Below are positions 3,072 through 15,295 of a stretch of 24,496 nt of DNA, piece by piece. Under the pieces are notes generated by a model, which saw only the letters and a program-made list of their open reading frames with translations, searched no databases and was not told where the DNA came from. The position numbers were made by a program, and so were the translations under genes. Source of the DNA: a virus; the IMG/VR virus record IMGVR_UViG_3300001533_002177, positions 1-24,496 of that record; one strand, 5' to 3'. Every line of letters begins with the position of its first letter. The first letter of the stretch is position 1.

Positions 3072-3085
3072 GCCCGGATTTGACA

Positions 3086-5572
3086 ATGGTCCAACCAGAG
3101 ACGTCCATCGACTGGGAATACGAGAAAGAGAATCAGACGGATGCCTGGCAGCGTCAATGCGAAGTTAGGTGGGCAACCGCTCGCCGGTTGATTGGGATGG
3201 GTTACAGCCTTTGCTGGCTGAGACCCCTAAGCAAGGCGTACGCCAGCAGCGTTGCCCTGGAGAGGCCGATTCGTAACGCTCACGTATTGGCCCAAATGAC
3301 CGACCCCGGCGGTGAATACCGCGATTTCAACTACGGGATCATATGTGGTTGCGGCACCGTCACGTTCCTCGACTTCGACATCAAGACCACCAAGGACGGC
3401 ACGGTGAAGGATGGCCTCGCCTTCTACCGTGAGCTTGCTGCCCGCCAGGGCGAGTCCCACATTTGGTCGACCTCCGTAACGCTAACGCCAAGCGGTGGAC
3501 AACACCACGCCTTTGCCTATGACGAGCGGTTCAACCGCCAGTCCCCTTGGGGCAAGAAGGGCATCGACATCCAAAACAGCGACGGTGCCCGACCTACCCG
3601 TCATGTGGTAGGGCCTGGCTCAGTGGTTTGGGACAATGGTGTCGGTGGCGTTTACCTTGAGGACGACGGAAGCGGTGCGATTGTCAGGGGCGAGACCAAC
3701 GCCATTCCCCGGCCTTATGTGAGCCCGCAGGAGCTGCCCCCGATTCCCGAGGGGATCCTCGAAGCGTTCATTGGTGACAATAAGGTGGTCTCCATTCATG
3801 GCGGACCCGCCCCATCTTTTGGCCGCCATGGCAGAGGTACCGATACCGTTGAAGAAGACGTAACGGTCGAAATGGCCGAGGAAATGCTTGAGAAGATCGA
3901 CGTTCGGGCGTGTCATTACGACGACTGGCTCCGGGTTGGGATGGCCCTCCACCATTGGAATGAGGTCGACGGATTCGAGCTGTGGCGGAAATGGTCGGAG
4001 ACTGACGCGCCCGAACGTTACGACTTCAAACGATTGCAGTCGGCTTGGGACTCGTTCTCGTTGGCACCGAGGGGCCGGGCCCCGGTGACAATAGCGTCCG
4101 TTTGCAAGATGGCCTACGACAATGGCTATTCCGGCCCGGACTGCACCACGACCTTGAGCCTCTACGAAGAGTACAACATCAAACACCCGCTCATAGCGGC
4201 TGACGTTGAGCATGTGTACCGCATGCGCGACGGGCGGGTGATTACCCATTCCGAAGACAAGCTCAAAAAGCTCCTCGTCGGCGAGCGCCACTGGATTACG
4301 GTGAAGGGCAAGCGCATTTGTCGGTTCGACCAATACCTGGAGTGGCCAAACCGAACCATTTATGATAAGCACGAAATGTGGCCGCCTCGTTCGAAGAACG
4401 ATACCCCTGGCTACGGCTGCCCACCACACATCTATAACACCTGGTCAGGGTACGCGCTCGAACCCAAGAAGAATACCGAGTTATTGGCGGCGTACCTTGA
4501 GCTGTTCAGGACCATGTTCCCCGACCCTGCCCAGCGTAAATGGTTCAACACTTGGCTGTGCGCCTTGGTGCAAGGACCGGGCACCAAACCCGGTACTGCC
4601 CCGGTGCTCTGCGGGAAGCAGGGTACCGGCAAGGATATGCTGATGAGCATCTTCCGCCGCATGTTCAAGTCCATGAACAGTGTGGTCATCAACCACGTCG
4701 ACCGGCTGACCAGCAAGTTTAACGACTCCTTGACTAACCGCGTGCTTGTTATAGCTAACGAGGCGCACTATAGTGGCAATCACCGCCACGCAAACCTACT
4801 CAAGGACTACATAACCAACGATGACTTCGACACCGAAGAGAAGAACAAGATAGCAATCTCCAAGCACAACTGCATGAAGATCATGTTGATGACCAACGAT
4901 CGGCGCGCGGCGCCAGTTGAGCGCTCGGACCGACGCTATGCCGTCTTCGAGGTCCCCTTGGTGAGGCCACCGGGGGACGCCTATTGGGGCGAAATGAAGG
5001 ACCGTATCAATCATAATGACGAATTCATACAGGCCGTTATGTACCACTACATGGAAATGGGAATGACCAAGCAGGACTGGCAGTTGATTGCCAGAGCGCC
5101 GGAGAGCGCTGATCGGGCCGCGGTTCAACGGCAGCATTTGTTGGAGGGGTTGGAGTCGAAGCCGAAGGACAAACAGTGCTTGGCGGTGATAACCAACCTG
5201 CTCCGCAAGGGCAAAGCCGCCCATGCCAAAGGGACCACCACCAAAACGCGGCACGGCGAATCGGTGGTTGTCGCGTACGACGGTTATGCCCTGTCGTCAG
5301 AAATGGTCTGCCGTGAGCATCGCCACGTTACTGGGCTGCCGTCTATGGACTGGAACTTCATAACGTTCCTGGCCCAGTGGTTCGAAAAAGAGCTAGAGAT
5401 AGCAATCGTTACCGGGGTCAAGAAGCGCATAGGCGGAACCCAGAAGCAGAGCATCATCCTGCCGTCGGCAAAGATAGTTGCAGAGGCCATATCTGATTTC
5501 CTGGGCGTGCCTCTGGAGGAAATCGACTACCCGGATGAATGGACCGAAGAGGGTCTGGACGACCTCTGGTGA
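3086..5572 (+). CDS. Phage primase-helicase (primase-polymerase, PriCT-2, SF3-like ATPase), 828 aa
   Basis: This large replication protein primes and unwinds phage DNA at the fork. The N-terminal third resembles an archaeo-eukaryotic primase/PrimPol domain: the acidic metal motif LDFDIK (D96, D98), then GGQHHAF, then a later DIQNSDGARPTRHVVGPGS segment. Residues about 260-345 look like the PriCT-2 primase C-terminal domain, with paired Trp/His-rich helices (YDDWLRVGMALHHW). The C-terminal half is a D5/SF3-type ATPase of the DUF5906 kind: Walker A GKQGTGKD (510-517), Walker B-like VLVIANEA (E559), then a MLMTNDRRA sensor segment and a conserved DRRYAVFEV. A TTG at 3080 is an alternative start. 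Neither start has a strong ribosome-binding site, and the upstream region holds the opposing promoter P5, so expression may be controlled there. The downstream SNF2 helicase and polymerase complete the replication set. Confidence 0.9.
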   Translation: MVQPETSIDWEYEKENQTDAWQRQCEVRWATARRLIGMGYSLCWLRPLSKAYASSVALERPIRNAHVLAQMTDPGGEYRDFNYGIICGCGTVTFLDFDIKTTKDGTVKDGLAFYRELAARQGESHIWSTSVTLTPSGGQHHAFAYDERFNRQSPWGKKGIDIQNSDGARPTRHVVGPGSVVWDNGVGGVYLEDDGSGAIVRGETNAIPRPYVSPQELPPIPEGILEAFIGDNKVVSIHGGPAPSFGRHGRGTDTVEEDVTVEMAEEMLEKIDVRACHYDDWLRVGMALHHWNEVDGFELWRKWSETDAPERYDFKRLQSAWDSFSLAPRGRAPVTIASVCKMAYDNGYSGPDCTTTLSLYEEYNIKHPLIAADVEHVYRMRDGRVITHSEDKLKKLLVGERHWITVKGKRICRFDQYLEWPNRTIYDKHEMWPPRSKNDTPGYGCPPHIYNTWSGYALEPKKNTELLAAYLELFRTMFPDPAQRKWFNTWLCALVQGPGTKPGTAPVLCGKQGTGKDMLMSIFRRMFKSMNSVVINHVDRLTSKFNDSLTNRVLVIANEAHYSGNHRHANLLKDYITNDDFDTEEKNKIAISKHNCMKIMLMTNDRRAAPVERSDRRYAVFEVPLVRPPGDAYWGEMKDRINHNDEFIQAVMYHYMEMGMTKQDWQLIARAPESADRAAVQRQHLLEGLESKPKDKQCLAVITNLLRKGKAAHAKGTTTKTRHGESVVVAYDGYALSSEMVCREHRHVTGLPSMDWNFITFLAQWFEKELEIAIVTGVKKRIGGTQKQSIILPSAKIVAEAISDFLGVPLEEIDYPDEWTEEGLDDLW

Positions 5573-8360: not shown

Positions 8361-9128
8361 ATGGCAACTCAAGTGACCAAGAAAGAAGCAACGACGGCTC
8401 TGGCCGTTCCGTCCTTCGGCAATAGCGGCCGGTCTCGCGGCAGCGAAAACGTCGGCGTGGCCGACATCACCATTCCGCGCCTGAGCCTTATTCAGAGCCT
8501 CAGTCCGCAGCGCAAGAAGAACGACCCGGAATTTATCCCCGGTGCCGAGGAGGGGATGCTGTACAACAGCGTCACCAAGGCCCTCTATGACAAGACCGTC
8601 TTGGTGGTCCCCATCTATTACCGCCTGGAGTTCCTCCTGTGGAAGATCCGTAAGGAGGGCGGCGGATTCCGCGGGGTCTTCAACAACCGCGAGCAGGCTC
8701 TGAACGAGGCCAGGACTCTGAAAGAGACCACGGAAATCGCCGATACCGGGCAGCAGTTCTGCCTGCTGTCGGCGGACAACGGCAAGACGTGGGCCGAAGT
8801 CGTCATTTCCATGTCCAAAAGCAACCAGAGCGTCAGCAAGAAGTGGAACGCTGATATCCGGCTCCGGACCCAGGATCACGGCCTTGACCGGTTCACCACC
8901 ATCTACGAGGTCGGCGCGGCACCGAAGACCAACGATAAGGGCGATTTCTTCGTCTTCTCGGTCAATTTCCTCCGGTTCATGAACGATAGCGAGCGGTCGT
9001 TGTACGACCGGTGCGAGAAGATCTACGACTCTATCGCCAGGGGCGAGAAGGACATCGACCGGACCTACGAGTCCGAGTCCGAGTCCGAGTCCCGGCCTGG
9101 CCAAGACGATGACGGTCCGGGGTTCTGA
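8361..9128 (+). CDS. Probable single-stranded-DNA-binding-type replication protein, 255 aa
   Basis: The protein begins with a disordered segment, followed by the conserved phage motif ADITIPRLSLIQSLSPQ (residues 34-50) and a mixed alpha/beta core ending near SVNFLRFMNDSERSLYDRCEKIY. The last 35 residues are acidic, with four in-frame Glu-Ser units and a final DDDGPGF that resembles the acidic tail ending in phenylalanine of single-stranded-DNA-binding proteins. I infer a DNA-binding role from the tail and from the location between a helicase operon and the polymerase; the core family is usually annotated as hypothetical. A good AAGGGG site lies before the ATG at 8361. Its stop overlaps the next start as TGATG, so the two genes are translationally coupled. 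Confidence 0.65.
   Translation: MATQVTKKEATTALAVPSFGNSGRSRGSENVGVADITIPRLSLIQSLSPQRKKNDPEFIPGAEEGMLYNSVTKALYDKTVLVVPIYYRLEFLLWKIRKEGGGFRGVFNNREQALNEARTLKETTEIADTGQQFCLLSADNGKTWAEVVISMSKSNQSVSKKWNADIRLRTQDHGLDRFTTIYEVGAAPKTNDKGDFFVFSVNFLRFMNDSERSLYDRCEKIYDSIARGEKDIDRTYESESESESRPGQDDDGPGF
9069..9092 (+). repeat. Four tandem GAGTCC units encoding Glu-Ser repeats
   Basis: Four perfect 6-bp units in frame near the 3' end of the gene at 8361, forming the hinge before its acidic tip. Copy number may vary by slippage. Confidence 0.9.
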
Positions 9129-9388
9129 TGCCAGAATACGACAACACCAACTCGGGGGTGCTGTTCCGAAACCATGACAAACAGACGGATCGGCACCCTG
9201 ACTACAGGGGTAGTTTGAACGTCGAGGGTAAGGAGTATTGGTTCTCCGGCTGGATCAAGGAGTCGACCGGTCGCGGCAAGCTTCCGGCTGGGACAAAGTT
9301 CCTGTCGGTGGCTATCACCGCTAAGGACGACCCGCCCTCCCGGCCACAAGAGGCCGGCCAAGACTTCGACGACGACATCCCTTTCTGA
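9128..9388 (+). CDS. Small protein ending in an SSB-identical acidic tip, 86 aa
   Basis: Residues 1-65 resemble a small phage family with the pattern NTNSGVLFRN, HPDYRGSLNVEGKEYWFSGWIKE and KFLSVAITA, probably a compact beta-barrel-like domain. The protein ends QDFDDDIPF. The last eight residues, DFDDDIPF, are the same as the C-terminal tip of Escherichia coli SSB, the peptide that recruits host replication and repair proteins such as PriA, RecQ, RecO, exonuclease I and the chi subunit. This protein may therefore bind DNA, capture host SSB partners, or both. Start and preceding stop overlap as TGATG. A TTCG hairpin and then the polymerase follow. The core's DNA binding is inference; the tip match is from established knowledge of SSB. 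Confidence 0.75.
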   Translation: MPEYDNTNSGVLFRNHDKQTDRHPDYRGSLNVEGKEYWFSGWIKESTGRGKLPAGTKFLSVAITAKDDPPSRPQEAGQDFDDDIPF

Positions 9389-9425: not shown

Positions 9426-11324
9426 GTGATCAATCTTAATAAATACCCCTATGTGGGGTACGATACCGAGACAACAGGGCTAGTGTACCCTAGGGACAAG
9501 GCGTTCTCGTTCGCCATTGCTACGCCGGACGGCCAAGTTGAGGCGTATGACCTTCGCCGCGACATGGGCGGTCATCCGGAAGAAGCGCGCATCATGGCCC
9601 GGCAACTGATGGACTACCAGGGCACCATCATCTGCCACTACGCCAGCTTCGATTACCGGATGTCCCATGCCGCTGGTGTCAAGCTCAGGCTCGAGAACAT
9701 GGACTGCACCAGCGTGCGGGCCTCGTTGTTGGACGAGCACCGCAACAGCTATAGCCTGGATGATTTGTGCTGGGATTGCCTGCACGAGAGGAAAGCTGGC
9801 GACGACATGTACAAGGAGATGGCTAAGCGGTTTGGCGGGCCGGCTACCCGGAAGGCCCAGATCGGCAGCCTTTGGCGCGCCCCGTGGAACATCATCGAGC
9901 CGTACGTCAAACATGACTCCTGGCTGGCGCTAAGGTTATGGATGTGGCAGGAGGGGGAAATCGAGCGACAGGACAAGTATTTCCCAACCAAAAGCGTGCG
10001 GGATATCGTCGATTTTGAGCGTGGCCTCATGCCGCACTTCATTGCCATGGAAATGCACGGTATCCGGGTGGATGAAGAGGCGGCGCACCGGGCTGTCGAC
10101 GACATGAACCTTGAGGTCAATGGTAATTTCGCCGCTCTGCGGGAACTGATCGGCCGTGACATAAACATCAACAGCTCGGCGCAGGTGCGAGACGTCTTCA
10201 AACCCGTGTTTGACGACGATGTTGGGAGCTGGCAGATAGGCAATACCTACATCGGCGCCACCGGCAAGGGGCAACCATCATTGGCCGCAGACCAGTTGCG
10301 GGCGCTGGCCGCAGCCGGAGACCGTCGGGCGGAGCTTATCCACAAAACCCGGTCGTTAATCAAGACCCGCGACACGTTCCTCCAGGGCCACATATTAGGC
10401 CACATGGTTGGCGATCGGGTTTATCCTCACATCAACCAGGTCAAGGGGGAGGATGGCGGAACCGGAACCGGACGGCTTAGTTATACGGGGCCGGCCCTGC
10501 AACAGATCCCCTCCAGGGACAAGGCCACCGCCGCTATCGTCAAGCCCATATTTCTTCCCGACGAGGGGCACGAATGGTTCGACGTTGATGCCAACAGCTT
10601 CGAGGTCCGTATATTCGCCCATTTAGTGGCGAGGTTCGACCCGCGCATTATCAAGACCTATAAGGATAACCCCAACACTGACTTCCACCAGTGGGTCGCC
10701 GACGAGACCGGGTTGCCCCGGACGGCTAGTTACAATGGCCAGCCCAACGCCAAACAGTTGAATCTGTCTATGATCTTCAACGCTGGCAGTGGCAACACCG
10801 CGATGCAGATGGGGTTGCCCTACACGTGGGACGAGTTTGAAGGCGACGACGGGAGCCTTGTCCGCTATGCCGTCGGCGGTGACGAAGTCATGGAAGTGAT
10901 CAACAAGTACCACGACCAGTTTCCGGGGGTCCGACAGCTACAGCAGCGGGCAAGAGAGGTTGCTCGCGAGCGTGGGTTCGTTCACACCCATCAGGGGCGC
11001 CGAATCAGGTTTCCACGGGGTTGGTACGCTTACAAGGCATCGGGGCTTCTGATCCAGGCCACGGCTGCGGATTACAACAAGGAAAACGTCAGCATCATCC
11101 GTAACGGCTTGGCGAGATTCGGCGGCAACCTGCTGCTGAACACCCACGACTCCTATTCAATGTCCCTGCCGAAGGGCGAGGCGCGGTACATTTGGGCTGA
11201 AATCCAACCGTTGCTCGAAGAACGGGGCAGGGCTAATGTGCCGTTGATTATGGACGTCAACGGGCTAGGCGCCAATTGGTGGGGGGCGCTGACCGACGCC
11301 CACGGTTTCAAGGCCAGTCAATAA
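9426..11324 (+). CDS. dpoZ: Family A DNA polymerase with 3'-5' exonuclease, DpoZ type, 632 aa
   Basis: This is the replicative polymerase, here probably adapted to 2-aminoadenine. The exonuclease domain shows Exo I DTE (D13, E15), Exo II SFD (D76) and Exo III YVKHD (Y160, D164). The polymerase domain shows motif A DANSFEVRIFAHL (D388, E393), a motif B-like region with K443 in NAKQLNLSMIFNAGSG, and motif C THDS (D575). Two features differ from E. coli Pol I: the motif B arginine, phenylalanine and YG positions look altered, and motif C has HDS instead of HDE. The GTG start at 9426 follows CGGAGACC. There is no 5'-nuclease domain. Adjacency to purZ, datZ and mazZ is what makes DpoZ the likely type. 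Discrimination between A and Z in published systems depends largely on the dNTP pool, so a strict Z preference cannot be read from sequence. Confidence 0.9.
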   Translation: MINLNKYPYVGYDTETTGLVYPRDKAFSFAIATPDGQVEAYDLRRDMGGHPEEARIMARQLMDYQGTIICHYASFDYRMSHAAGVKLRLENMDCTSVRASLLDEHRNSYSLDDLCWDCLHERKAGDDMYKEMAKRFGGPATRKAQIGSLWRAPWNIIEPYVKHDSWLALRLWMWQEGEIERQDKYFPTKSVRDIVDFERGLMPHFIAMEMHGIRVDEEAAHRAVDDMNLEVNGNFAALRELIGRDININSSAQVRDVFKPVFDDDVGSWQIGNTYIGATGKGQPSLAADQLRALAAAGDRRAELIHKTRSLIKTRDTFLQGHILGHMVGDRVYPHINQVKGEDGGTGTGRLSYTGPALQQIPSRDKATAAIVKPIFLPDEGHEWFDVDANSFEVRIFAHLVARFDPRIIKTYKDNPNTDFHQWVADETGLPRTASYNGQPNAKQLNLSMIFNAGSGNTAMQMGLPYTWDEFEGDDGSLVRYAVGGDEVMEVINKYHDQFPGVRQLQQRAREVARERGFVHTHQGRRIRFPRGWYAYKASGLLIQATAADYNKENVSIIRNGLARFGGNLLLNTHDSYSMSLPKGEARYIWAEIQPLLEERGRANVPLIMDVNGLGANWWGALTDAHGFKASQ

Positions 11325-11346
11325 CACTCAACACCCGGAGTAACCT

Positions 11347-12390
11347 ATGCTCAAGAACACCGACATGATTATCGACCTCCAGTACGGCAGCACCGGCAAG
11401 GGCCTGGTGGCTAGCTACCTGTCGTACAAGTCGGCCGAAACAGTCCCCTATGACGTTGTGGTGTCCGCCAACATGCCGAATGCCGGGCACACCGCATACG
11501 ACATGGACGGCAGCAAATTCGTCCACAAGGTGCTGCCTTCGGGGGTGTTCCACAAGCCCAACAGTATCTTGGTCGGGCCGGGGGCGGTATTCAACATCAC
11601 CCAACTCGAAAAGGAGATCGTCCGCTTGCTTGACTACGGCCACCTGTCCTTGGGCCAGCAACGGATTTACGTTCACGCCCAGGCTACCGTTCTGACGCGG
11701 GACATGAAGCGCGCCGAGGAGGAATCGCCCGTGACGAAGATTGCGTCCACGGCGCAGGGCTCGATGGCCGCGCAGATGGCGAAAATGACCCGCGACCCCG
11801 ACAGCAACCCCACCGCCAAGATGCGCGCCAACGACCTGCGGCAGTTGGAGGTCAGGGTACTTTCCAACCGTGATTGGCTGACGGTGGCCGCGGGCGCTCG
11901 CCGTATCCTGGCCGAGGGCGCCCAAGGATACAGCCTTGGAATCCACCAGGACTTCTACCCCTACTGCACCAGCCGCGATTGCGGTCCGGCTCGGTTCCTG
12001 TCGGATATGGCCATTCCGTGGAACCGTCTCGACAAAGTTGTCGGGGTGCTGCGCACTTTCCCGATCCGGGTCGGCAGTACCGACAGGGGCTCGTCCGGTC
12101 CCTGTTACGACGACCAGAGGGAGATAACTTGGAAGAGTCTCGGGGTGACGCCAGAAACCACGACTGTTACGGGGCGCGAGCGCCGGGTGTTTACCTTCTC
12201 CAAGTTGCAGCTCCGGGACGCGATTCTGGAAACCGGCGCGTCGGAGCTGTTCATCAACTTCTTCAACTACCTGGCCACGGAAGACCAGCAGTCTTTTCTC
12301 TCCATGATAAAGAACGAGGCCCGCGTCTTTGGGGCCCCGGTCAAGTACATCGGCAACGGACCGACGCCGCAGGAGGTCGTGGAGCTATGA
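11347..12390 (+). CDS. purZ: PurZ, N6-succino-2-amino-2'-deoxyadenylate synthase, 347 aa
   Basis: PurZ is a viral relative of adenylosuccinate synthetase (PurA). It joins aspartate to dGMP using ATP or dATP; host PurB then releases fumarate to give dZMP, which host kinases turn into dZTP. The PurA fold is clear: phosphate loop QYGSTGKG (12-19), NAGHT with the catalytic-type histidine (H48), LPSGV (63-67), EGAQG (190-194), a TFPIRVGS segment and TGRERR (275-280). S15 stands where PurA has its catalytic aspartate in GDEGKGK, a change typical of PurZ and fitting a dGMP rather than an IMP substrate. The length of 347 fits PurZ rather than PurA (about 430). ATG at 11347 follows CCCGGAG. The stop overlaps the datZ start as ATGA, so the two are coupled. 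Confidence 0.93.
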   Translation: MLKNTDMIIDLQYGSTGKGLVASYLSYKSAETVPYDVVVSANMPNAGHTAYDMDGSKFVHKVLPSGVFHKPNSILVGPGAVFNITQLEKEIVRLLDYGHLSLGQQRIYVHAQATVLTRDMKRAEEESPVTKIASTAQGSMAAQMAKMTRDPDSNPTAKMRANDLRQLEVRVLSNRDWLTVAAGARRILAEGAQGYSLGIHQDFYPYCTSRDCGPARFLSDMAIPWNRLDKVVGVLRTFPIRVGSTDRGSSGPCYDDQREITWKSLGVTPETTTVTGRERRVFTFSKLQLRDAILETGASELFINFFNYLATEDQQSFLSMIKNEARVFGAPVKYIGNGPTPQEVVEL

Positions 12391-12902
12391 GCAAAATGAA
12401 CAAGCTATGCAACCAGCTACGGTTGCAGTACGTCAAGCGCTGGCACGTCGTACACCAGACCCACGACCAGTCCGTGGCTGAACACAGCATCAACACAGCT
12501 TTCATCGCCAGGGAATTGGCGGCGAGACTGGGCCTGAGCCATCGTATCCAGGACTTGGTGACGGTGGCCGCTCTGTTCCACGACATCGACGAGGTGATCA
12601 CGGGCGACATCCCCGGCCCGTTCAAGAGGACCATACCGGAAGAAGTGTTCGGCCGGTCGCGTTTGCCCGAGGTCCGCATCTTGGGGGCACCGCCATTGGC
12701 CAGGATCGTCAAGCTGGCCGACATGATGGAGACTGCTTGGCATGCGGCGGTACATGGCGTCACCCCGCACGCACGTCAGGTTGCGGCTGATTGCAGCGCC
12801 GATCTGTTCAAAGCCCTGGATGACTGTCCGTGGCAAGAACTTGCTGATACCGCCCACACAGTGTGGGGCGATGTGCTGAACGCCGAATATGATTTCGTCT
12901 GA
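12387..12902 (+). CDS. datZ: DatZ-type HD-domain dATP triphosphohydrolase, 171 aa
   Basis: DatZ removes dATP by cutting off triphosphate, so that the polymerase inserts Z instead of A. The HD signature is complete: H33 in SVAEHS, H65-D66 in LFHDIDE, E69 and D74 in the following turn, and D112 in KLADMMET. RW at 18-19 near the N-terminus is also usual for this group of small YfbR-like HD hydrolases. The length of 171 is close to the roughly 175 residues I recall for DatZ. The start is the ATG at 12387, overlapping the purZ stop as ATGA, with AGGAGG upstream. A longer in-frame reading from 11874 lies inside purZ and is a shadow. Close coupling to purZ supports the DatZ role over a general nucleotidase. 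Confidence 0.9.
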   Translation: MSKMNKLCNQLRLQYVKRWHVVHQTHDQSVAEHSINTAFIARELAARLGLSHRIQDLVTVAALFHDIDEVITGDIPGPFKRTIPEEVFGRSRLPEVRILGAPPLARIVKLADMMETAWHAAVHGVTPHARQVAADCSADLFKALDDCPWQELADTAHTVWGDVLNAEYDFV

Positions 12903-13368
12903 GGATGACCTCCGGGAGTATTTGTTTGGCGAGTTGAGTGTCGCCATTCATTTCTCCCGCTTAGAGGCGCATGCCAGCGCTCCTGGTATCCCCGACCTGG
13001 CCTACACACTCCAGGGGGTGAATGGTTTTCTAGAGTTGAAGTATGGCGACAAGAAAAGAGCACCAAAAGTGCGCCCCACCCAGTATGCCTGGATGCGACA
13101 AAACGTAAGGTTCGGGGGCGGCAACCCGCTGATACTGGTGGCGATCAGGGGCAGCGAGGCCACCAAATTCAGACTTATCCACGGCTCCTACATCGAGCTG
13201 TTAACACAGAACCCAGGGGTAAAACCATGGCTGACAACACCGGCTCAGGAATGGACCGACCAGATTTGCTGGCCCGAATTTCTGGCAACTTTATTCCGCC
13301 CTCAGAATCTCCTCGTCAACCTCCAGGGGGCAAAAAGCACGACAAGGGTAAAGACCGGTGGGACTTGA
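12889..13368 (+). CDS. VRR-NUC type nuclease within the Z cassette, 159 aa
   Basis: This is a PD-(D/E)XK-fold nuclease of the VRR-NUC group, a family related to Holliday-junction and structure-specific endonucleases. The signature is visible: GIPDL (D36), FLELKYG (E49, K51) and a TQ pair (Q65 in RPTQYAWMR). The ATG at 12889 overlaps the last 14 bases of datZ. The C-terminal 47 codons overlap the start of the next gene in another frame for 142 bases, unusually long for this genome. If the family's usual size of about 100-120 residues holds, this tail is an extension. Its role is unknown: branched-DNA resolution, recombination, or degradation of unmodified host DNA are possible. A role in the Z pathway is suggested only by its position. 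Confidence 0.8.
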   Translation: MISSEDDLREYLFGELSVAIHFSRLEAHASAPGIPDLAYTLQGVNGFLELKYGDKKRAPKVRPTQYAWMRQNVRFGGGNPLILVAIRGSEATKFRLIHGSYIELLTQNPGVKPWLTTPAQEWTDQICWPEFLATLFRPQNLLVNLQGAKSTTRVKTGGT

Positions 13369-13661
13369 TCCCGTGGCCGGAACTGCAAGCGGTGGTAAAG
13401 GTTATCTCGCACGGCGCTGCCAAATACGGCGACAGTAATTGGCAGCATGTCCCCGATGGCCCCGAGCGTTACTTCGCCGCCGCCATGCGCCACATCACCG
13501 CATGGCGCAACGGTGAAGAATATGACCCGGAATCCGGTCTGCCTCACCTGGCGCACGCTGTCTGCTCTACCCTGTTCCTGATGGCCCTGGACAAAGGGTT
13601 GAATGCTGCGCCGGGCGAAAAGCCGAGAGAAGACTGTCAGGGGGCATTCGACTTTCTCTGA
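13227..13661 (+). CDS. mazZ: dATP/dGTP diphosphohydrolase, MazZ-type (DUF5664-like), 144 aa
   Basis: The core from residue 38 has the classic pattern of the phage dATP/dGTP diphosphohydrolase N-terminal family (formerly DUF5664): HDKGKDRWDLIPW, HGAAKYGDSNW, RYFAAAMRHITAW and YDPESGLPHLAHA, with invariant-looking Lys, Asp, Glu and His residues typical of MazG-like all-helical pyrophosphatases. In the Z pathway such an enzyme turns dGTP into dGMP, the PurZ substrate, and may also lower dATP. The N-terminal 37 residues are low-complexity and overlap the nuclease gene by 142 bases; ATG at 13251 is an alternative start, but AGGGGT before 13227 favours the longer form. It is the last gene of the rightward arm. 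The MazZ name rests on family and neighbours; the protein is not necessarily the closest relative of S-2L MazZ. Confidence 0.8.
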   Translation: MADNTGSGMDRPDLLARISGNFIPPSESPRQPPGGKKHDKGKDRWDLIPWPELQAVVKVISHGAAKYGDSNWQHVPDGPERYFAAAMRHITAWRNGEEYDPESGLPHLAHAVCSTLFLMALDKGLNAAPGEKPREDCQGAFDFL

Positions 13662-13802: not shown

Positions 13803-14381
13803 CTACTCCCCGGAGCCGTAACCGGCACCCGCCTCTGCACCCGCCTCTCTGCCCAATCTCGGCATCAGTATGTCAGAAACGTTCGGCAGCGGAAAATATG
13901 CTATCGGGGCATTGCGCTGCGCAAGGTAACCACCGGAAACCATCGGCCCCGCCAAAAGCCGCGCCATACCCAATGGGCCAGCAATCGTCTGGACTGCCTG
14001 GCCGGTCGGGGTTCCGGAGTTCGGTACCGGGTTACGTCCATAGTTCGCGGCAATCGATAGATCGTTGATGGGCGTGCCGGGCACCACGTGTTTTCCGCCG
14101 CGGCGGCGGTAGTTGTAGAAAACAGTAGGCCGGAAGTCGCCAGCGCTAATGGCCTTCGACCGCTCTATGTCCCGGAGATTGCGCCACCTCGTGCGGGCCT
14201 CTACCAACTCCGGCAGATCGCCGAAAGCTTTATTGAACTCATAATCCAGCGCGTCGCGGGCAGCGTAAAGGACGCGCTCCGTTGCCGGGTCAGTTGTGCC
14301 CCTGGCCAATGACGCGAGATCGGACACGGTCTGCTGGTAATCGGACACCGTCATATACTGCTGCTCGCCCTTAGCCCGCAA
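13803..14381 (-). CDS. C-terminal part of a split internal virion protein
   Basis: This reading frame has no convincing own start (TTG at 14381) and stays open upstream to 14522, overlapping the end of the gene at 14477-15295 by 43 bases in the -1 frame. Translated through, the joined segment reads FPITSSYYQALDQIERRLSEG, a normal protein sequence, so the two frames probably encode one protein of about 497 residues. The part here is helical at first (MTVSDYQQTVSDLASLARG, residues 10-28), then has a Gly- and Pro-rich region and ends in an Ala/Gly-rich tail. It is the last gene of the leftward arm, where podovirus-like phages often place internal or ejection proteins. Either a -1 shift, a sequencing error or a true mutation separates the halves. 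Confidence 0.7.
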   Translation of the reverse strand: MRAKGEQQYMTVSDYQQTVSDLASLARGTTDPATERVLYAARDALDYEFNKAFGDLPELVEARTRWRNLRDIERSKAISAGDFRPTVFYNYRRRGGKHVVPGTPINDLSIAANYGRNPVPNSGTPTGQAVQTIAGPLGMARLLAGPMVSGGYLAQRNAPIAYFPLPNVSDILMPRLGREAGAEAGAGYGSGE

Positions 14382-14476: not shown

Positions 14477-15295
14477 TTATCGGAAAAGACTGGGTCTCTC
14501 TGCCAGAATATCGTCTGTGATCTTATCGGAGCCTTCCAAGCCGATTGCCCTTCGCGCTATTCTGTTCGATACTTCTTGGTTGGGGCGGTCGATCCTTTCG
14601 GTAAAGGGGCCGGACATGAATGGATCGCGCGACGCCGCAGCCTCGAATTGCTGGAGCTGAGGGTCCAGCGCTATTGTCGCCGGGGTATGCCGGTACCCCA
14701 AATCTCTAGCCTTCCTTAGTTGCTCGCGATGCGCCGGGGTCATGATCTCCGGCGTGCTGGGCGGACCGAATGCAAGACGGCCACCGAGGCGCGCAGCTTC
14801 GTTACCTAAAACCCCGGCACCAGCAGCGGCGGCTGCCCGAGCCGGGTCGCCGCCGGATTCGACATACTCTTCGCCGCCGGCCGCCGCCGCCGCGCCAGCC
14901 AAGCGGGGGGCGATTCTCGCGGCCCCGCCACCCGGAATCGCCAGCGATGGGGCGATGTTGCCTGCGCCGTAGAAGAGGGGGCGGGCTTCGCGCAACGGCT
15001 CCATCCTCGCTTCACGGGCGGCCCGCGATTCTCTAGCGATATCACCAATCTGCGAATCCGGGCCGCCCAGGCCAAATCTGTCATGCAACATCCCTATGCC
15101 CTCTGCTAAGGCTGCCACTTTGTTGGCGGCGCCCACCAAGAACGCTTGTCCGGGCGACGTGTCTTCGCGCACCTGGTTATCGCGAACTAGCTTGTAGAGC
15201 GCGCCCCTGATCCGCTCCATGACTTCGGTGTCACCGGCGGCTTCCGCGAGTTGGTACATTTCGCGAAGCCGGTCGATTTTCTTTTCATTGTCCAT
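14477..15295 (-). CDS. Internal virion/ejection-type protein, N-terminal part, 272 aa
   Basis: The N-terminus is a helical charged region (DNEKKIDRLREMYQLAEAAGD, residues 2-22). Residues about 110-175 are an Ala/Gly-rich hydrophobic stretch (IAPSLAIPGGGAARIAPRLAGA) with strong membrane-inserting character, as in proteins ejected through the host envelope. Its C-terminus runs out of frame at TAA 14479-14477, while the -1 frame continues for 225 more residues. ATG at 15295 lies one base after the stop of the previous gene. No enzyme motif is visible. The order of large repeat-bearing peptidase protein, then this protein, matches the ejection-protein block of short-tailed phages. Exact family is not recognised. 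Confidence 0.75.
   Translation of the reverse strand: MDNEKKIDRLREMYQLAEAAGDTEVMERIRGALYKLVRDNQVREDTSPGQAFLVGAANKVAALAEGIGMLHDRFGLGGPDSQIGDIARESRAAREARMEPLREARPLFYGAGNIAPSLAIPGGGAARIAPRLAGAAAAAGGEEYVESGGDPARAAAAAGAGVLGNEAARLGGRLAFGPPSTPEIMTPAHREQLRKARDLGYRHTPATIALDPQLQQFEAAASRDPFMSGPFTERIDRPNQEVSNRIARRAIGLEGSDKITDDILAERPSLFR

Follow-up and report, generated by a model that had tools for sequence, protein, structure and literature searches.

A Z-genome cassette without MazZ in an uncultured phage, with a stand-alone DUF5664 protein as candidate source of dGMP for PurZ

The window analysed here, by which we mean the whole of the 24,496-base virus record IMGVR_UViG_3300001533_002177 from IMG/VR, carries at 9426-13661 a set of genes of the kind that exchanges adenine for 2-aminoadenine (Z) in phage DNA. 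As a Z cassette, with PurZ, DatZ and DpoZ, it is a further member of an already known type; what is novel is its layout, which lacks MazZ and has a stand-alone protein of the DUF5664 family. We think it likely that the window comes from a Z-genome phage in which DUF5664 takes the place of MazZ as the source of deoxyguanosine monophosphate (dGMP) for PurZ. A preliminary description of this DNA had read the run as a complete cassette of four coupled genes, the four parts known from phages S-2L and phiVC8. The single coupled run on the + strand stands, but it comprises five genes, the one overlooked being a nuclease gene:

9426..11324, + strand: dpoZ, a phiVC8-type family A DNA polymerase (3'-5' exonuclease plus polymerase) of the aminoadenine-preferring clade
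11347..12390, + strand: purZ, succino-2-amino-deoxyadenylate synthetase
12387..12902, + strand: datZ, an HD dATP triphosphohydrolase
12889..13368, + strand: gene for a PD-(D/E)XK (Hjc/VRR-NUC-like) nuclease
13227..13661, + strand: stand-alone DUF5664 (PF18909), a predicted dATP/dGTP pyrophosphohydrolase

A gap of 22 nucleotides (nt) separates dpoZ from purZ, the purZ stop codon is overlapped by the datZ ATG (4 nt, ATGA), the nuclease gene overlaps datZ by 14 nt, and the nuclease and DUF5664 genes share 142 nt, an AGGGG lying 7 nt 5' of the DUF5664 ATG. The likening to S-2L and phiVC8 was inexact: S-2L lacks DpoZ and carries a PrimPol (PMC8065100), and in both phages mazZ lies between purZ and datZ, as it does in ZP6, BUCT555, Bm1 and SH-Ab 15497. 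In the window the purZ-datZ overlap leaves that slot empty.

The three core genes are what they had been taken for. The polymerase scores 742 bits against the NCBIfam model NF038380 (phage_DpoZ_1; cut-off 500), its best solved relative is phiVC8 DpoZ (PDB 7pbk, 1.4e-177), and it retains R432, L447, F451 and G540 (the last three being L455, F459 and G548 in phiVC8 numbering) along with three clade-specific insertions. Across the phage collection it is 41-48% identical to polymerases of Z phages and 26-27% to other records among the matches listed; an IMG/VR scan using DpoZ alone found no relatives. Its Exo II motif, CHYASFD, has Tyr where the DpoZ of phiVC8 and of SH-Ab 15497 has Asn, a change that may alter proofreading. 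PurZ exceeds the cut-off of NF038379 (amino_Aden_PurZ; 321.9 bits against 300), and its best solved relative is phiVC8 PurZ (PDB 6fm1, 1.5e-88). As had been described, a serine (Ser15) replaces the catalytic Asp13 of PurA, and the dGMP/ATP pocket is kept (G47-H48-T49, R149, Y206, T208, R241-V242, T272, R279, N304-F305, P339), with A133 in place of Gly. A position inside cellular PurA, named beforehand as evidence against PurZ, is not what the tree gives: the three bacterial PurA sequences taken in stand apart (100/100), PurZ0 of Arthrobacter phage Wayne comes next, and the window protein lies within phage PurZ (97/97). Archaeal PurA was compared by search score only, at 73.9 bits against 300 for phiVC8 PurZ. 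DatZ, for its part, matches phrog_7076 (dATP triphosphohydrolase, 4.5e-29) and S-2L DatZ (PDB 6zpa, 7.7e-12); it keeps the metal and phosphate residues R18, H33, H65-D66, E69, K80, K109 and D112 (R19, H34, H66, D67, E70, K81, K116 and D119 in the S-2L reference numbering). Among the base residues (W20, I22 and P79 in S-2L), W19 and P78 are kept and the isoleucine is Val21 here, a conservative change. Diagnostic residues were taken from structural papers (PMC8342488, PMC8065100, PMC8599892). The prediction that PurZ, DatZ and DpoZ together make dZTP, remove dATP and replicate DNA with a preference for Z is well supported by curated models, residues, phylogeny and synteny.

The fourth assignment, a MazZ-type dATP/dGTP diphosphohydrolase, did not survive. 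The open reading frame (ORF) at 13227-13661 has PF18909 (DUF5664; dGTP_diPhyd_N) as its sole Pfam match, at 2.7e-32 and 111.1 bits against a gathering cut-off of 27; the current name of that family is 'dATP/dGTP diphosphohydrolase, N-terminal'. The ORF has no MazG, DUF550 or PRA-PH domain (PF04447, PF03819, PF01503, PF12643), and MazZ-1 and MazZ-2 profiles have no match anywhere in the window, which together exclude MazZ for this gene and correct a misannotation: PF18909 alone does not equal MazZ. The cassette thus has PurZ, DatZ and DpoZ without MazZ, and since the MazZ call was wrong, 'complete' would hold only if DUF5664 does the work of MazZ. Profile-profile comparison of DUF5664 with MazZ-1 and MazZ-2 detected no hidden homology. 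In the structural model of DUF5664 a four-helix core is predicted with confidence, but the likeness of the model to S-2L MazZ (7ody, Z 4.0) and to iMazG (Z 4.3) is weak and within the helical background, and a fold search with the model gave no significant match, MazG-type chains appearing only among weak helical matches. Because the S-2L MazZ match does not rise above background, a distant link between DUF5664 and MazZ is neither shown nor excluded. The window protein does have the hallmarks of its own family, namely nine near-invariant residues (K42, G63, K66, Y67, R88, H89, G96, D100 and H107, in an alignment that includes the Wayne protein) and the core pattern K..G..KY..RH..G..D..H. A trimeric dUTPase of the DutZ type, considered as the missing enzyme, was ruled out, being absent from the window and from the mazZ-less records searched.

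PurZ-guided scans of IMG/VR, GTDB genomes and phage records gave 93 loci in a first survey and about 140 with second scans included. Layouts were scored with home-made profiles for each gene: PF03819 (MazG) and PF04447 (DUF550) were dropped as MazZ detectors, and our own profiles with positive controls were used because PF03819 missed MazZ-1 genes known to be present. Because likeness to the query determined the ranking of the sample, the proportions that follow do not represent population frequencies. After dereplication, with S-2L counted, 53 loci have MazZ only, 11 have MazZ and a separate DUF5664, three have a DUF5664-MazZ fusion, 11 have DUF5664 without MazZ (the window included), four are of other kinds and two are cut short. 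DUF5664 is present in 11 and absent from none of the loci without MazZ, and present in 14 and absent from 52 of the 66 loci with MazZ; this table leaves aside the four others, namely L002, L081 and L090 (our locus numbers), which have another small protein in the slot, and L040, which has PurZ without DatZ. The order purZ-datZ-nuclease-DUF5664 without MazZ recurs in 11 further uncultured IMG/VR records, 10 of them distinct (L010, L020, L021, L022, L023, L025, L029, L030, L034, L036 and L038), which makes 12 with the window. At all 11 DUF5664-only loci purZ abuts or overlaps datZ (gap <=0), and DUF5664 comes directly after the nuclease gene.

The pattern holds beyond the immediate locus. A MazZ profile search over the entire length of the 12 same-type records (the window and one near-duplicate among them) found none, with all five controls detected, and five of these records, at 36-38.5 kb, have the size of complete relatives. 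DUF5664, searched for in the same manner, turned up in each of the 11 mazZ-less records tested. Of the records with MazZ but no DUF5664 at the locus, 20 were scanned and none had DUF5664 anywhere; its absence at those loci is therefore no effect of the flank taken. A second scan led by mazZ-less PurZ sequences brought no new contigs of this kind, and one led by a distant PurZ branch supplied most of the ~55 further loci, nearly all with MazZ. On a contig of that distant branch a stand-alone DUF5664 without DUF550 sits inside the purZ-datZ slot itself (L184:3870-4238), and three more second-scan loci carry an unassigned slot protein. Every surveyed locus that has PurZ together with DatZ also has at least one of MazZ, DUF5664 and a slot protein. 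In all cultured isolates sampled from the Z-phage groups (phiVC8, K300, ZP6, BUCT555, Bm1, SH-Ab 15497, Barton, PMBT28, PSA28, Kokobel2, K21lambda1 and S-2L) the slot is filled by MazZ or the fusion. According to the published rule, the place of mazZ is always between datZ and purZ; the MazZ-free layout, which we know from 12 uncultured records and did not see in any cultured relative examined, contradicts it. The Vibrio phage K300 group, which had looked mazZ-less from its annotation, was ruled out as a further case by an unannotated mazZ-2 between purZ and datZ (L114:2191-2487); the deposited annotation misleads there.

Phylogeny suggests that this layout arose more than once. On the PurZ tree the absence of mazZ needs about four changes, two of them forced by supported branches, and L036, without mazZ, is sister to L018, with mazZ-2 (100/95). 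On the DUF5664 tree, which has 125 columns only and weak deep branches, the window and L010 fall among the DUF5664 of ordinary phages and Wayne (97/97), and the other DUF5664-only records sit with the DUF5664 of phages that have both MazZ and DUF5664. It follows from this grouping that the window and most other mazZ-less records acquired their DUF5664 in separate recruitments, and that at least two DUF5664 lineages reached the same site. We consider it fairly probable that, in Z phages with PurZ, DatZ and a phiVC8-type DpoZ, MazZ has been displaced at least two times by stand-alone DUF5664 proteins not detectably homologous to it, from different sources but at the same place, sometimes by way of a stage at which the two coexisted. 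If this is true, DUF5664 would be a general phage enzyme of deoxynucleoside triphosphate pools that can be drafted into base substitution.

How might such a cassette make Z? PurZ requires dGMP, which S-2L MazZ produces from dGTP (PMC8342488). In a published experiment, E. coli given datZ, mazZ and purZ together had Z in plasmid DNA (PMC8342488). The stand-alone DUF5664 of Wayne converts dATP, dGTP and dUTP to their monophosphates (PMC12884076), and the fusion of DUF5664 with DUF550 in Acinetobacter phage SH-Ab 15497 has dATP/dGTP pyrophosphohydrolase activity (PMC12884076). We propose that mazZ was lost from the slot between purZ and datZ and that its role passed to a DUF5664 drawn from the gene pool of phages at large, which would convert dGTP to dGMP and also dATP to dAMP, helping DatZ to lower dATP. 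PurZ would then combine dGMP with aspartate to form succino-2-amino-dAMP, host PurB and kinases would carry this on to dZTP, DatZ would remove the triphosphate from dATP, and DpoZ would copy the genome with dZTP opposite T, so that 2-aminoadenine replaces adenine. We infer the replacement of MazZ by DUF5664, the enzyme activities in this phage and the presence of Z in its DNA from sequence.

Several points weigh against this proposal. The activity of a stand-alone DUF5664 has been measured for Wayne only and for none from a phage with PurZ and DatZ, and with the Wayne enzyme dGTP is hydrolysed about ten times more slowly than dATP (kcat 0.053 and 0.48 per s; PMC12884076). Finding DUF5664 is in itself little evidence, given how common it is where the DNA is ordinary: matches to the window protein occur in 1,252 of 50,697 phage records, and the family is present in roughly 2-3% of phage records, many labelled 'hypothetical'. 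Independent losses of mazZ number 2 to 4, too few for significance on the tree by a sign test on independent pairs. And since the window is a 24.5-kb fragment, mazZ could lie elsewhere in the phage.

Some of these points would fit a rival account, in which an ordinary Z-genome phage has a DUF5664 that is unrelated to Z, a common gene beside the cassette, and dGMP comes from host metabolism or an undetected enzyme. The spread of DUF5664 through ordinary-DNA phages, the grouping of the window copy with theirs, and the several phages that have MazZ and DUF5664 together at the same place all speak for it. We nevertheless regard it as unlikely, because DUF5664 occupies one and the same site in every one of the 11 distinct empty-slot loci and none of the 20 scanned MazZ records has it anywhere, because two different DUF5664 lineages show the pattern and the L184 copy sits in the slot itself, and because every surveyed locus with PurZ and DatZ has MazZ, DUF5664 or the slot gene. 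It is quite improbable that a MazZ is encoded outside the window with DUF5664 as an accessory, as in phages that have both. The window has no end repeats and known relatives reach 38-40 kb, but mazZ falls within the purZ-datZ interval in the surveyed MazZ-bearing loci, and the five same-type records of about full size are without MazZ anywhere. We give still less credence to a relic or repurposed cassette, in a phage with ordinary DNA that uses PurZ, DatZ and DpoZ otherwise, for example only during host takeover: base composition is unreadable from sequence, and the window DpoZ has Tyr at the Exo II position where phiVC8 has Asn, yet none of the three core genes is broken, they form one coupled run, their diagnostic residues are kept, and both DpoZ and PurZ exceed Z-specific cut-offs. 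If DUF5664 does feed PurZ, as we favour, it would add a design by which cells could be made to produce Z-DNA without MazZ, and would give a role to a family often annotated 'hypothetical'. Within the open-access literature the sole paper naming DUF5664 is PMC12884076, which describes stand-alone DUF5664 in PurZ0 phages.

Among the closest known systems, vibriophage phiVC8 has a Z-cluster (PurZ, MazZ-2, DatZ, DpoZ) that is 48% (DpoZ), 46% (PurZ) and 36% (DatZ) identical to the window. Both have a nuclease gene after datZ, and helicase and SSB (single-strand DNA-binding protein) genes upstream. phiVC8 has mazZ-2 in the slot closed by the purZ-datZ overlap in the window, and its dpoZ and purZ are separated by a primase gene, whereas in the window dpoZ abuts purZ and a primase-like gene lies upstream (3080-5572); only the window has DUF5664 after the nuclease gene. 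SH-Ab 15497 shares PurZ, DatZ, DpoZ and a DUF5664 domain with the window, but there the N-terminal DUF5664 is fused to a C-terminal DUF550 of MazZ-1 type in the mazZ slot, and here it is stand-alone, without DUF550 and two genes further downstream. Wayne has a stand-alone DUF5664 with the near-invariant residues in common, in a different setting of PurZ0, a Wayne-type DpoZ, a DmtZ-DutZ fusion and no DatZ, where the window has PurZ, DatZ, a phiVC8-type DpoZ and no dUTPase. Among the same-layout uncultured phages, L010 alone is a near relative (PurZ 54%), with a DUF5664 from the group of ordinary phages; in the remaining ones DUF5664 belongs to a separate lineage.

Six PurZ loci carry a further protein of ~90-140 amino acids in the mazZ slot (L002:11058-11486, L081:9053-9367, L090:1986-2321, L211:5398-5667, L264:3387-3710 and L229 at about 1882-2214). 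It belongs to phrog_2831, a family without assigned function, in those tested, has no Pfam match over cut-off and shows the pattern ER..Q..K.G...H....W......EL.EA..A...GG..R.....E..Q..A...A..EQHG; it is possibly a third MazZ type. L040 (IMGVR_UViG_3300033696_000004, a far longer viral contig of 119,931 bases) has a PurZ 44% identical to that of the window and no DatZ, MazZ, DpoZ or DUF5664 within 8 kb. At the PurZ-MazZ loci L052, L059 and L066, a small, apparently hydrophobic protein stands at the place of datZ, with no DatZ within 8 kb.

The same nuclease gene follows datZ in most Z-phage cassettes. It belongs to phrog_2165 (1.6e-13), which PHROGs labels 'DNA helicase'. Across 18 relatives E5, P35-D36, E49, K51, Q65 and W68 are invariant, the structural model has a predicted local distance difference test score of 89.8, and its best PDB matches are Hjc resolvases (E 1e-4). 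The product is a PD-(D/E)XK nuclease of Hjc/VRR-NUC type, not a helicase.

As for the window itself, its lack of end repeats makes it probably a fragment of a larger genome. It comes from an uncultured tailed phage, probably a podovirus, and the reference phage collection holds nothing alike at the DNA level and no near-identical phage. Directly 5' of dpoZ lies the gene for a small SSB (9128..9388, + strand; phrog_7364, 3.2e-17) of the replication module, and further upstream are the primase-like gene, a SNF2 helicase and two genes related to phage Pam3 proteins. The right part of the window, on the - strand, encodes virion proteins, a DNA ejection protein and a muramidase; two ORFs there of unassigned family (13803-14381 and 14477-15295, - strand), ~95 bases apart, might together represent a single virion gene interrupted by a frameshift.

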